From: a virus | Direction: 5' to 3' (one strand) | IMG/VR virus record: IMGVR_UViG_3300028024_000175 | Location: 1-26,039 of that record | DNA: 26,039 nt | Notes under the pieces: generated by a model | The model's input: only the letters and a program-made list of their open reading frames with translations | The model's database searches: none | What the model was told of the DNA's origin: nothing | Translations under genes and position numbers: made by a program | Shown: one piece after another, positions 13,286 to 26,039 of the stretch | Numbering within the stretch: position 1 is the first letter of the stretch | How the letters are laid out: each line of letters opens with the position of its first letter

Positions 13286-13358
13286 TGCTCGCTCTTGGGT
13301 TGCGATGTGGTCGGAAAAGCGCCGAAATCCATCAACATAGCGTTTATGTTTATTATGC

Positions 13359-13387
13359 TTGTAGTTATACGCATCGCGTATTACATT
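13359..13387 (+). promoter_or_regulatory. higBA promoter with palindromic operator
   Basis: A perfect inverted repeat ATACGC-ATC-GCGTAT (13367-13381) fills the 17-base spacer between TTGTAG (13359-13364) and TACATT (13382-13387), weak -35 and -10 elements. HigA-type antitoxins bind such palindromes. The predicted transcript would start at or near the higB ATG (13394). Confidence 0.6.
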
Positions 13388-13393
13388 GTTCGT

Positions 13394-13672
13394 ATGATAG
13401 AGAGCTTCAAAGACAAGGCGACCGAAACGCTGTGGATGACCGGCAAGTCAAAGCAGTTCGGCTCGTTCAAAAAGGTGGCGCTCCGCAAGCTCGATATGCT
13501 GCAAGCCGCCGTAAAGCTGGACGATCTGCGCTCGCCGCCGGCCAATCACCTTGAAGCTCTGAAGGCGGACCGTAAGGGCCAGCACAGCATCCGGATCAAC
13601 GATCAGTTTCGGATCTGCTTTGTGTGGACTGCGACCGGCCCGGCCGATGTTGAAATCACGGATTACCACTGA
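13394..13672 (+). CDS. higB: HigB-type toxin (RelE superfamily mRNA interferase)
   Basis: This encodes 92 residues from the ATG at 13394. The N-terminal MIESFKDKATETLWMTGKSK and the C-terminal HSIRINDQFRICFVWTATGP, then ADVEITDYH, are the HigB signature (RINDQ.RICF.W, with the final DYH). The upstream ATG at 13295 would add a hydrophobic stretch that no HigB has, so I reject it. HigB cuts mRNA on the ribosome and is neutralised by HigA. It lacks a visible ribosome site and may be read from a leaderless mRNA. Toxin comes first, as is standard for higBA. Confidence 0.93.
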   Translation: MIESFKDKATETLWMTGKSKQFGSFKKVALRKLDMLQAAVKLDDLRSPPANHLEALKADRKGQHSIRINDQFRICFVWTATGPADVEITDYH

Positions 13673-13683
13673 GGGAGAGGGAT

Positions 13684-13980
13684 ATGACCCCCAACCGCAT
13701 CACCACCCACCCGGGCGAGATCCTCGCCGAAGAGTACCTGAAGCCGCTGAACATGTCGGTCAACGCCCTGGCTATGGCGCTGCGAGTGCCCGCAACCAGG
13801 ATTGGCGCCATCGTCAAGGGCGAGCGCGGCGTCACCGCCGATACCGCGCTGCGGCTCGGCCGGTTCTTCCGCACCACGCCAGAGTTCTGGGTGAACCTGC
13901 AGGCAATGCATGACCTGACCACGGCCAAGGCCGAGATCGGTGAAGCGATCGAGCGCGATGTCAACCCGCATGCTGCTTGA
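13684..13980 (+). CDS. higA: HigA-type antitoxin (XRE family)
   Basis: This encodes 98 residues. THPGEILAEEYLKPLNMSVN, then ALAMALRVPATRIGAIVKGE and TTPEFWVNLQAMHDL are diagnostic of HigA antitoxins: a start motif 'HPGEiL.EEfl.pl', an XRE helix-turn-helix and the 'F.sPefWl.LQ..ydL' motif. It binds HigB and represses the higBA promoter, probably through the palindrome at 13367-13381. GGGAGAGGG precedes the ATG. Confidence 0.95.
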   Translation: MTPNRITTHPGEILAEEYLKPLNMSVNALAMALRVPATRIGAIVKGERGVTADTALRLGRFFRTTPEFWVNLQAMHDLTTAKAEIGEAIERDVNPHAA

Positions 13981-21656: not shown

Positions 21657-22109
21657 TTGGTGAACCCACAGATCTTGAGCGATTTGATTGTCCTGCTGAA
21701 AAAGACCAAGGAAGCAAGCCGACCGCTCGACGACGCGATCGACGCGTGCGTTGGGAAAATGCCACCGGACTACGGGGGAGGCAGCTGGCATCGATTGGCG
21801 CCATGCTCATATGCTCGCCCCGCCTCTATCGCCGGGGGCATCGAAACATATTTCTCGCCGCATTTCACCAGCAGCATAGATGCAGCATCGGCACTGATTC
21901 CCGCCGGCTGTATCTGGCAGATCCTTCACGCGCCGGCGGGCCCACGTGGGAGCGTCTGGTGCGTGAGGGACAATGGTGGAGATTTTGACGTCTGGGCGGA
22001 TAGCGATGTTTGCGCGACGCCGGCGCTCGCGATTTGCGTCGCTGGATTACGGGCGCAGTTGCAGCTGATTGACGGCGGTGGGCCCGTCCGCAGTGCTTCA
22101 GCGGCATAA
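21657..22109 (+). CDS. Conserved phage protein (DUF2591-like)
   Basis: GAGGAG lies 8 bases before the TTG at 21657 and 11 before a GTG at 21660, so the product has about 150 residues; the upstream ATG at 21597 is less likely. The layout is that of small unknown proteins common in alphaproteobacterial and enterobacterial phages: SRPLDDAIDACVGKMPPDYG, then a beta middle with YFSPHFTSSIDAASALIPAG, and a helical end TPALAICVAGLRAQ. Function is unknown even where the family is known. It ends the rightward early operon before converging genes. Confidence 0.75.
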   Translation: MVNPQILSDLIVLLKKTKEASRPLDDAIDACVGKMPPDYGGGSWHRLAPCSYARPASIAGGIETYFSPHFTSSIDAASALIPAGCIWQILHAPAGPRGSVWCVRDNGGDFDVWADSDVCATPALAICVAGLRAQLQLIDGGGPVRSASAA

Positions 22110-22201
22110 GAGAAGATGGCCAGACGTCCGACCATCGATCATTGCGATTCCTCGGTATGGCATTTTACGCTGTGATGAGACACCGAGAGCCGTCATATGA
22201 G

Positions 22202-22702
22202 TTAGGACGCTACAGTGGAACTCATCGACAAACTATTCAGCGCAACCAATCCCTCCATCACGCCATAGATGAAGGCTGCTACGCCCAGGGCTGCGGCGAC
22301 CATCGCCAGAATATGGAAACAACGCGCGACTATCTCTCCCTTATTTCGAAACTGAAATCTGCTGTAGGAAAGTTGTGCAACGTAGCTGAAACACGCAGAC
22401 GCGATCGCCGCCGTTGCTCCTACCGCGAAAATAATCAGGCTATGAGAAGCTGGCGCGATAGCCTCTTTCAATGCCGGCTTACCCCATATGGTGCCGAGAA
22501 ATGCGAGTACCGTCCCGGCCGCGGCACTGTTGGTCAATATAATGCTGTTAATCGCAAGTGTTGCGAATCCTACAATGGCTTGAGTGTGGGTCGCATAAAG
22601 CTGAATTTTAGCTTCGCGCTCGCGCATGGTGCGCTCATCGAAGCGCCCCGGCCTCCTCGAATTCCCAGTCGTTTCGGCTCGCCTCACTCGAATTCTGGCC
22701 AT
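22202..22702 (-). CDS. Multi-span membrane protein of a two-gene cassette
   Basis: This encodes 166 residues. After a basic N-terminus and a charged helix (RTMREREAKIQLYATHTQA), hydrophobic segments lie at about residues 42-73 (one or two spans, with TNSAAAGTVLAFLGTIW), 87-110 (SLIIFAVGATAAIASACFSY, then VAQL) and 127-152. The layout matches a common proteobacterial type with an 'N.gAa..lLaFLG' and 'Y.aQ' pattern, but its role is not known. It is 9 bases downstream of 22712-23254 and presumably shares a transcript. Its strand and lower GC differ from the phage genes around it, as expected for a lysogenic conversion or exclusion gene. Confidence 0.75.
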   Translation of the reverse strand: MARIRVRRAETTGNSRRPGRFDERTMREREAKIQLYATHTQAIVGFATLAINSIILTNSAAAGTVLAFLGTIWGKPALKEAIAPASHSLIIFAVGATAAIASACFSYVAQLSYSRFQFRNKGEIVARCFHILAMVAAALGVAAFIYGVMEGLVALNSLSMSSTVAS

Positions 22703-22711
22703 ATTGCTCGC

Positions 22712-23254
22712 TCACTCGCCGTCATGGATAGGAGCGACGGCCGTCAATGCCTGCTCAGTCAGACTGCGGCTCAGCGCCACGTGTCGCTCCATCAGCTCGG
22801 TCGGATTAAACTGAGGTCGCTGTGGCGTCACTGCTTCAATCATGCGATTCGTTTGTGCCATAGTGGCAATCAGCTGCTGGATCAGTCCTCCAGCATCGCT
22901 CCCCAATATGTAAAGATTGTCGACATTACGTTCGAGCGCCGGTGTGATAGGCACCAGAAGCCGATTACGTTCGTCTGGCTTAAGTGCGATTTCTGTGTCC
23001 GGCGGTGCCAGGCTCCTAAGCCTGCTATCGAGGACGTTGAGTTTGATTTTGAGCTCAAGCAACTCTGGGTAAATCGCCAATGCCAAGGATCTAGATCGGA
23101 GTTTCCGATCACTTGCCGCTTCCGCCCGCTCATCATGCCTAATGCGCCAAGGCACGTAGATCGCTATTCCGAGACCCACGGTCCCGATCATACCCTGCGC
23201 CCATGCCGCGGCGCCGGGATGCGTTTCAATCCAGTCGAGAACAGTTCCCCACAT
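22712..23254 (-). CDS. Membrane-anchored helical protein of a two-gene cassette
   Basis: This encodes 180 residues. One hydrophobic segment near the N-terminus (about residues 14-36, AAAWAQGMIGTVGLGIAIYV) is followed by a basic WRIRHDERAEAASDRKLRSR stretch, so most of the protein is cytoplasmic. The rest is helical (LALAIYPELLELKIKLNVLD, LIQQLIATMAQTNRMIEAV). This 'W.qg.gt...i.i' anchor plus helical domain is a common unknown type. With the multi-span partner just downstream it forms a membrane pair like lysogen-expressed exclusion systems (RexB, for example, is a membrane protein), but no homology to these is claimed. Confidence 0.72.
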   Translation of the reverse strand: MWGTVLDWIETHPGAAAWAQGMIGTVGLGIAIYVPWRIRHDERAEAASDRKLRSRSLALAIYPELLELKIKLNVLDSRLRSLAPPDTEIALKPDERNRLLVPITPALERNVDNLYILGSDAGGLIQQLIATMAQTNRMIEAVTPQRPQFNPTELMERHVALSRSLTEQALTAVAPIHDGE

Positions 23255-23361
23255 CTGATGCCCCCATCATTGATGGAAACCATCCTGTGTGACGGCGCGG
23301 ACTTTATCAAGTCGGTGCACACATCGGGCGTGCGCGTACGGGGAATCACGGAGACAAAGCT

Positions 23362-23679
23362 GTGAACAGAAACCGCGTCCTCCCGTCCCGTTTGCAGCCC
23401 CTCCACTCGAAGCCGGCCGTAGAGGCTATTCAGGCTGCCGCCGACATCGACCCGGCGGTAAAAAGGGACGGACCGGCCGGATCGATCGCGGCCGACATGC
23501 TCTACGGAGCAGAGGAAATTCAAGAATTCCTCGGACTGAGAAACCCGAAACAGGTTTACTACCTAGTGGAAAAGGGCGAGGCGCCAATCAAGAAAGTCCC
23601 TGGCTTCAAAGGGTTGGTCGCCAGCAAGACGGCCTTAACGGCCTGGCTCCGGCAATATGTGCCGGGGCTTGCAGTCTGA
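23362..23679 (+). CDS. Excisionase-like / AlpA-type HTH protein
   Basis: This encodes 105 residues from GTG 23362 (GGAG 8 bases upstream); an ATG at 23497 would start directly at the domain. The second half, MLYGAEEIQEFLGLRNPKQV, then YYLVEKGEAPIKKVPG and KTALTAWLRQYV, is a winged helix-turn-helix of the MerR/AlpA/excisionase type. It lies 25 bases before the integrase gene, the usual place for a directionality factor. The N-terminal 45 residues are probably disordered. Confidence 0.82.
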   Translation: MNRNRVLPSRLQPLHSKPAVEAIQAAADIDPAVKRDGPAGSIAADMLYGAEEIQEFLGLRNPKQVYYLVEKGEAPIKKVPGFKGLVASKTALTAWLRQYVPGLAV

Positions 23680-24961: not shown

Positions 24962-25028
24962 GCCATCGTTGTCGCACAGGACTCGTGCCGCGGCTGGCCC
25001 TAAGAATATGTTGGGGGAGATCACAGAT

Positions 25029-25442
25029 ATGCATTTCAAGCCACTCGCGGGCGTCGTCATGGTATGGGCGCTCGCCGCCTGCACTGCGTCGAGGGTGCAG
25101 GTGAGGCCTGAGCAACTCACGGCCTTCCATCAGGGCCAGTCCACTCCGCAGGATGTCATCGCCATGCTTGGCAACCCGACCTCGCAAACCGTCACATCGG
25201 ACGGCAGCCGGATGCTGTTCTACAGCTATGCGGCTGCCCAGGCTCGCCCGGGATCGTTTATTCCGATCGTCGGGCCACTCGTCGGTGGCGCTGATGTGCA
25301 GACGAGCATGGTCTGGTTTCGCTTTGGCCCGGACGGCAAGATGATTGACTATTCGGCCAGTAACAGCGCGACGGGAACCGCGACCGGGTTTGCGGCGCCC
25401 GCTACACCAACAACGCCGAATCAGCCAGCGGCGGCTCAATAG
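25029..25442 (+). CDS. BamE/SmpA-like lipoprotein
   Basis: This encodes 137 residues from ATG 25029 (GGGGGAG about 9 bases upstream); starts further upstream lack a signal sequence. A lipoprotein signal MHFKPLAGVVMVWALAAC ends in a LAAC lipobox. The mature part (VRPEQLTAFHQGQSTPQDVI, AMLGNPTSQTVTSDGSRMLF) fits the BamE/SmpA/OmlA fold: 'f..Gkst..dV...lG.Pt....sdG...w.Y'. The C-terminal tail is Thr/Ala/Pro-rich. These lipoproteins sit in the outer membrane. Probably a host gene past the prophage end. Confidence 0.85.
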   Translation: MHFKPLAGVVMVWALAACTASRVQVRPEQLTAFHQGQSTPQDVIAMLGNPTSQTVTSDGSRMLFYSYAAAQARPGSFIPIVGPLVGGADVQTSMVWFRFGPDGKMIDYSASNSATGTATGFAAPATPTTPNQPAAAQ

Positions 25443-25451
25443 GGGGAGATC

Positions 25452-26039
25452 ATGTGGAAGAAAAACTGGTTTTTGAATCCGAGATTTATCGGGTCGCTCA
25501 GTCTGGCTTTGCTAGTCGGTGGCTGCACAGCAACGACAGTGCCGCCGACGCAGACTCAAAAAGAGAGCAGCGTGACGACGGTGATCAACAAGCCGGTCGA
25601 AGAAACCTGGCAAGCCGTAATTGACTATGCGGGCACGACGTTCTTTGTGATCGACAATGTCGCAAAGGATAGCGGACTGATGACGATGTCATTCGGCTCC
25701 AATAATCCGGGCGATTTTATCGATTGCGGCACCTGGTCATTTGGCAATCGATCTGGGCCCTTCGTCCTCATAGTCGCGCAAGAGGGCGCACCAAATGCCC
25801 TGAACGGCAAACTCAATGTATTGGTCAAGGAGATTGCGCCTGGGCGCTCGCAGATAACGGTCAAGGCTCGCTACGTGTATCAGGTGACCGACCTCAATCG
25901 CGCGACAACAACGTGGGCATTCAACACGGGTGATCGTGCGACAAATCGGATGGGGCTTGGCAATACGGTCACATGCGTTCCCACGGGTAAGGTTGAGAAT
26001 GACTTGATTGCGGGCACCCGCGGCAAGCTCGGCCTGTGA
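25452..26039 (+). CDS. Putative lipoprotein
   Basis: This encodes 195 residues, with stop TGA exactly at the end of the window. GGGGGAG lies 4 bases before ATG 25452. The signal segment FIGSLSLALLVGGC ends in a GGC lipobox. The mature part (NKPVEETWQAVIDYAGTTFF, VIDNVAKDSGLMTMSFGS) resembles bacterial outer-membrane lipoproteins with a small alpha/beta domain for trafficking or assembly ('..v..v..aW.av.......g..i...d...G.i...f'). It follows the BamE-like gene by 9 bases and shares the upstream GGGGGAGATCA sequence. Role unknown; probably host. Confidence 0.78.
   Translation: MWKKNWFLNPRFIGSLSLALLVGGCTATTVPPTQTQKESSVTTVINKPVEETWQAVIDYAGTTFFVIDNVAKDSGLMTMSFGSNNPGDFIDCGTWSFGNRSGPFVLIVAQEGAPNALNGKLNVLVKEIAPGRSQITVKARYVYQVTDLNRATTTWAFNTGDRATNRMGLGNTVTCVPTGKVENDLIAGTRGKLGL

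Follow-up and report, generated by a model that had tools for sequence, protein, structure and literature searches.

A reversed pair of membrane-protein genes beside the integrase of a temperate phage, and its possible part in superinfection exclusion

Two minus-strand genes beside the integration genes

The DNA analysed here (hereafter the window) is an entire virus record of 26,039 bases, possibly incomplete, from a temperate tailed phage. Its minus strand carries the terminase, portal and capsid genes and then, still on that strand, a replication protein gene and a cro-like gene; the plus strand carries the gene of a CI-like repressor, three further ORFs, a small gene and the integrase gene. 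The nearest relatives of the terminase are found in metagenomic phages and, among isolates, in Brevundimonas phages. Since the bacterial genome hits are, in addition, mostly Alphaproteobacteria, an alphaproteobacterial host is likely. Two minus-strand ORFs, A and then B, occupy the interval from the plus-strand ORF ending at 22109 to the gene at 23362. The features of the region are the following:

19509, plus strand: CI-like repressor (ORF call)
20380, 21055 and 21597, plus strand: three further ORFs (ORF calls)
22115–22136, minus strand: terminator-like hairpin 3' of B, 9 pairs with a T-rich tail (weak)
22202–22702, minus strand: gene B, ORF of 166 aa
22703–22711, minus strand: gap of 9 bases from the stop of A to the start of B, read directly; co-transcription probable
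22712–23254, minus strand: gene A, ORF of 180 aa
23255–23361: divergent intergenic region of 107 bases, 5' of both A and the plus-strand gene at 23362
23362, plus strand: small gene, xis-like by position only (ORF call)
23705, plus strand: integrase (ORF call)

The sequence-only reading that preceded this analysis had described two membrane-protein genes 9 bases apart and read against their neighbours, and both points are confirmed by the ORFs and by the flanking genes, which are on the plus strand. The spacing and the shared strand point to joint expression, and A and B probably share one small transcription unit. Regarding its signals, the hairpin scan gave two hairpins in the region compared to a mean of 0.9 in shuffles, which is a weak signal. 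For A, no promoter candidate was found in the scan at a threshold of 9 of 12; by eye, we could pick out a weak minus-strand candidate (TTGATA and CAGGAT, separated by 17 bases) with 8 of 12 matches.

The GC content of the pair is 0.549 (0.560 for A and 0.537 for B) and that of the window 0.603, a difference of about 2 SD. The lower GC content remarked on earlier is therefore real, but it does not single out the pair, because the immunity region at 19–21 kb is equally low. Codon use is the most atypical among the genes compared, with mean log RSCU values of -0.119 for A and -0.207 for B, while other accessory and immunity genes range from -0.074 to +0.083. A 407-aa plus-strand ORF (22142–23365) runs antisense across both genes and was treated as spurious. 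Judged by family homology, A and B are real genes: against family HMMs from which the window protein had been left out, A scored 48 bits over residues 2–58 and B scored 86 bits, far above the best of 2000 block shuffles made for each gene (12.9 and 16.9, respectively).

Elsewhere in the window, two adjoining plus-strand ORFs stand amid minus-strand genes (13295–13980). By eye, they resemble a HigB/HigA-type toxin-antitoxin pair, a plasmid maintenance killer-like gene followed by an HTH gene. Two lipoprotein-like genes follow the integrase (24969–26039). A related phage has, adjoining its repressor, a homologue 37% identical to the first of them (L008:1594-2004); that gene therefore probably comes from phage, not host, DNA.

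Two membrane proteins from separate families

Searches of Pfam, PHROGs, PADLOC and NCBIfam gave no significant match for A or B, and the PADLOC models yielded 0 families for both of them up to E 10. This agrees with the earlier statement that neither protein matches a recognisable named defence family. No convincing relatives came from tblastn searches with A or B against phages and plasmids, nor from single-sequence scans of viral contigs (A and B) and genome contigs (A); relatives were reached via whole-genome searches and then alignments. Candidates dropped as chance matches were L164 (E 0.0018) and L173 and L175, whose matches fell within long frames of other proteins. Literature searches returned nothing on either family. 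Homology between A and B themselves was considered and rejected (hhalign, 0.5%).

Protein A has one hydrophobic segment, at residues 16–34. Its AlphaFold model (pLDDT 88.5) contains helices at residues 2–11, 119–141 and 151–177 and a continuous helix from residue 13 to 82, and this 70-residue helix is predicted to traverse the membrane into the cytoplasm. With the N-terminus outside and the helical domain in the cytoplasm, as predicted from positive-inside charges, A would be a single-span inner-membrane protein with a cytoplasmic helical bundle. Helical bundles give many weak structure matches; in Foldseek searches of A against the PDB and viral structures, no match was found at E<=0.001.

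The family of A was reached from a distant homologue in an alphaproteobacterial genome, whose alignment led to two phage relatives and these to 92 relatives in IMG/VR, 80 of which were kept as the sample. Candidates dropped as chance matches were L164 (E 0.0018) and L173 and L175, whose matches fell within long frames of other proteins. The hallmark of the family is the N-terminal periplasmic/membrane sequence WIExHPGxASWVQAxGS, with W18 and Q20 invariant across 77 aligned members, and A carries a module of this type with its span. Most of the aligned members (61 of 77) match phrog_33632, a family of unknown function, with a best E value of 8.8e-40. That family has the N-terminal membrane motif in common with A, but A itself does not match the profile up to E 1. 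It is thus through the wider family HMM, and not through a direct match, that A is tied to phrog_33632, and by profile similarity it belongs, as an outlier, to a large phage family made up of relatives of phrog_33632.

Conservation in this family drops sharply past residue 40 or so, and the cytoplasmic end is variable. The N-terminal/membrane module is conserved as protein, with entropies of 0.47, 0.37 and 1.34 bits at codon positions 1, 2 and 3. The gene opposes the strand with most coding sequence in 70 of the 80 phage loci, which are not independent owing to shared ancestry. Its neighbours vary from phage to phage; relatives sit in early regions, many of them adjoining DNA methyltransferases, and some phages carry two or three paralogues close together.

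Several of these loci deserve a description of their own. In the stretch of about 46 bases before the start of A, compared at 26 of them (L201–L264), many have a near-invariant leader, GGGGATCCTCGCCGGTATAGTTCCGGGATCTACAGGGGAGTGGGTT-ATG, in common. The leader-bearing loci have a divergent gene about 48 bp away, and several of the divergent genes start with MSAQQ and are of unrelated kinds (DNA methyltransferases and others), as if modules had been swapped at the shared leader. The near-identical phages L186 and L187 have the same A gene followed by different genes: a Dam-like methyltransferase in one phage and, in the other, a 94-aa three-span protein, a zinc-finger-like gene and a 231-aa phrog_9267 membrane protein. 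This site downstream of A is a cargo exchange site. In L176:1-2037, a Fic gene with a match to the SoFic defence model (8.7e-20) is followed after 16 bases by an A-like gene, which the end of the contig truncates. Finally, a plus-strand ORF of Leptolyngbya phage Lsp-JY19 (L192:1495-2337) at first resembled noise, being antisense to the annotated hypothetical gene XAI95371.1, but it scores as an A-family protein, so the annotation of XAI95371.1 is probably wrong.

As for protein B, it has three hydrophobic segments (residues 42–60, 77–95 and 131–149) and an AlphaFold model (pLDDT 80.3) with three long helices (22–72, 76–115 and 120–165), and is predicted to be a three-span membrane protein. Hydrophobicity, AlphaFold models and charges thus bear out, as a predicted topology, the single-span protein with a helical cytoplasmic domain and the multi-span partner seen in the sequence-only reading. 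The 'channel-like' character then given to B derives from its number of spans, and a Foldseek search of the PDB gave no match at E<=0.001, solved channels included. The family profile matches B over its full length, including NxxAAxxxLAFxG in span 1 and YxxQ after span 2, and residues N58, L66, G95, Y107 and F144 (window numbering) are invariant in 18 aligned sequences. On the strength of this profile match, B belongs to an undescribed three-span family.

One could argue that such small membrane proteins are not cargo at all but lysis proteins, either holin/spanin or antiholin-like. Indeed, an Rz-like spanin PHROG is hit by two relatives of A (E about 0.003) and a holin PHROG by one relative of B (E 0.014), the latter match lying outside the spans. 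However, the pair adjoins xis/int, far from the late genes, A and B themselves match neither Pfam nor a lysis PHROG, and their relatives are found in early regions (A) or as lone chromosomal genes (B). We therefore rejected the holin/spanin reading, and consider a role in lysis highly improbable.

Distribution and pairing of the two families

A class-wide search found the B family in 16 of 385 alphaproteobacterial genomes, and it was also present in 11 of 369 genomes from the class to which a betaproteobacterial centre belongs (in GTDB, Gammaproteobacteria), which amounts to 3–4% of the sampled Alpha- and Gammaproteobacteria, as well as in seven viral contigs. Most chromosomal copies are lone genes outside mobile elements, several of them near housekeeping genes. 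Among the mobile relatives, those of Paraburkholderia phage IPK and phage G803 come immediately after the integrase (in G803, across the record ends); plasmids carry others, one in Vibrio within an inovirus-like block and one in Thalassospira. The sequence-only reading had named families lying apart and outside mobile elements as a finding that would speak against it, and for B this is largely the case.

Some B genes are near secreted nucleases of the thermonuclease-like, PLD-like and DNA/RNA non-specific endonuclease types (L193:5506-5958, L194:7106-7687, L197:2347-2754, L191:5632-6597 and L168/L184), and one B domain is in the same long ORF as a thermonuclease-like region. Of 33 B loci, 4 have a nuclease motif, while among 240 control loci there are 2 (p 0.002, Fisher test). 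Given that this comparison is post hoc, that one of the four motifs is more than 10 kb from B and that no secreted nuclease was seen beside B in the window, the link is only a lead.

A profile search detected B in none of the 79 A-bearing viral records, using a profile that does recover B in bacterial genomes. Conversely, A was present in one of seven B-bearing viral records, namely G803, where it is on the reverse strand, 2.4 kb ahead of xis-int and not adjacent to B. G803 is the only other record with both families, both of them near the integration genes. A was absent from all 33 B neighbourhoods and was not found in the complete IPK genome. For any single phage such absence is weak evidence, because the records may be fragments. 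Overall, the co-occurrence does not fit an obligate A-B pair, and the proposal that the two genes form one conserved system is not supported; that they adjoin in the window may reflect a local union.

These counts speak for an explanation in which two independent morons came to lie side by side by chance in an accidental operon, A doing one job in the envelope of the lysogen and B another that is not specific to phages, for example in host membrane physiology. The predominance of lone chromosomal genes among B relatives and the changing neighbours of A point the same way, but the 9-base spacing on a shared strand implies joint expression, and G803 has both families near its integration genes. 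We regard this explanation as a serious possibility, second to the one that we favour.

Prophage cargo with a possible role in exclusion

Morons are extra genes of temperate phages, with their own transcription unit and often set against their neighbours. A and B have this layout, being a minus-strand pair among plus-strand genes beside the integrase. The cargo spot assigned to them earlier is the usual moron position, adjoining xis/int, and the cargo-like context is shared by relatives, both in the strand opposition of A and in the B relatives directly after phage integrases. The explanation that we favour, with a probability of roughly 45%, is that A and B are lysogenic-conversion morons and that the role of A is most likely superinfection exclusion at the inner membrane. 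The two would probably be passenger genes that alter the host cell, and perhaps keep out rival viruses.

According to this explanation, A and B would be expressed in the lysogen as inner-membrane proteins from one small unit, read against its neighbours and ending in the terminator-like hairpin. A would be anchored via its conserved periplasmic helix and span, so that this membrane module sits in or binds the envelope and the fast-diverging helical domain faces the cytoplasm, where it may meet incoming phage components or the injection apparatus. B would be another protein of this membrane, distinct from A and with three spans, whose union with A may be confined to this lineage; the two may interact. 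The position, opposed strand and atypical codon use of the pair argue for cargo, as do the reversed A gene before xis-int in G803 and the B relatives in IPK, G803 and the inovirus-like block; as for exclusion, the N-terminal module conserved as protein and the divergence of the cytoplasmic part would fit a fixed anchor with a variable recognition domain. On the other side, the two families do not occur together as a pair, most B relatives are lone chromosomal genes, the promoter evidence is weak, and reversed membrane morons serve other purposes too.

In order to contextualize this proposal, we compared the pair with known exclusion proteins. SieA is an inner-membrane protein expressed by the prophage that blocks early, at DNA entry (PMC10883804). 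In P22 it is a 164-aa protein whose gene is reversed against the late genes, as A and B are against their neighbours, although it has four hydrophobic segments by scan. SieB of P22 is likewise a membrane protein (192 aa) from a gene reversed against the early-left operon, but with two N-terminal spans and a hhalign probability of 0.4% to A. HK97 gp15, reported as a superinfection exclusion protein by Cumby et al. 2012 (as cited in PMC11436027), resembles A as a single-span moron protein with a cytoplasmic helix, and differs in its size (62 aa), its tail-gene region and its co-directional gene. The A and B family models matched none of the P22 and HK97 ORFs, SieA and gp15 included. Because A and B have no homology to SieA, SieB or HK97 gp15, the comparison is one of layout (reversed genes for small membrane exclusion proteins, in the case of sieB and sieA) and likely mode of action, not of membership.

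The conserved membrane part and diverging cytoplasmic part of A may alternatively be a fixed membrane effector with a variable sensor, as in a two-component abortive infection system in which the cytoplasmic domain of A would sense a phage product, the conserved membrane module of A, or else B, would breach the membrane, and the infected cell would die. The distant A relative downstream of the Fic gene is consistent with this, but there is no conserved A-B pairing, no PADLOC model matches either protein, and the three helices of B resemble no solved channel at the threshold used. We judge it unlikely, and rank exclusion first, independent morons second and abortive infection third. A broader version, which we find rather doubtful, is that A stands for a large class, so far unrecognised, of exclusion or abortive-infection proteins acting at the envelope, with a fixed periplasmic/transmembrane module and a diversifying cytoplasmic domain, which would have spread among temperate phages as reversed morons; in the present phage, A would have recruited B as a partner to make a two-component membrane defence.

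The novelty of this work is that A and B are placed in two families without an assigned function; the three-span family of B, present in a few per cent of the sampled Alpha- and Gammaproteobacteria, is not covered by the libraries searched. As things stand, A-B is ordinary prophage cargo with an unusually clear family structure. If A acts in exclusion, there would be a testable role for a family of unknown function from dozens of temperate phages, whose build of conserved membrane part and variable cytoplasmic part would offer a handle on what is recognised.
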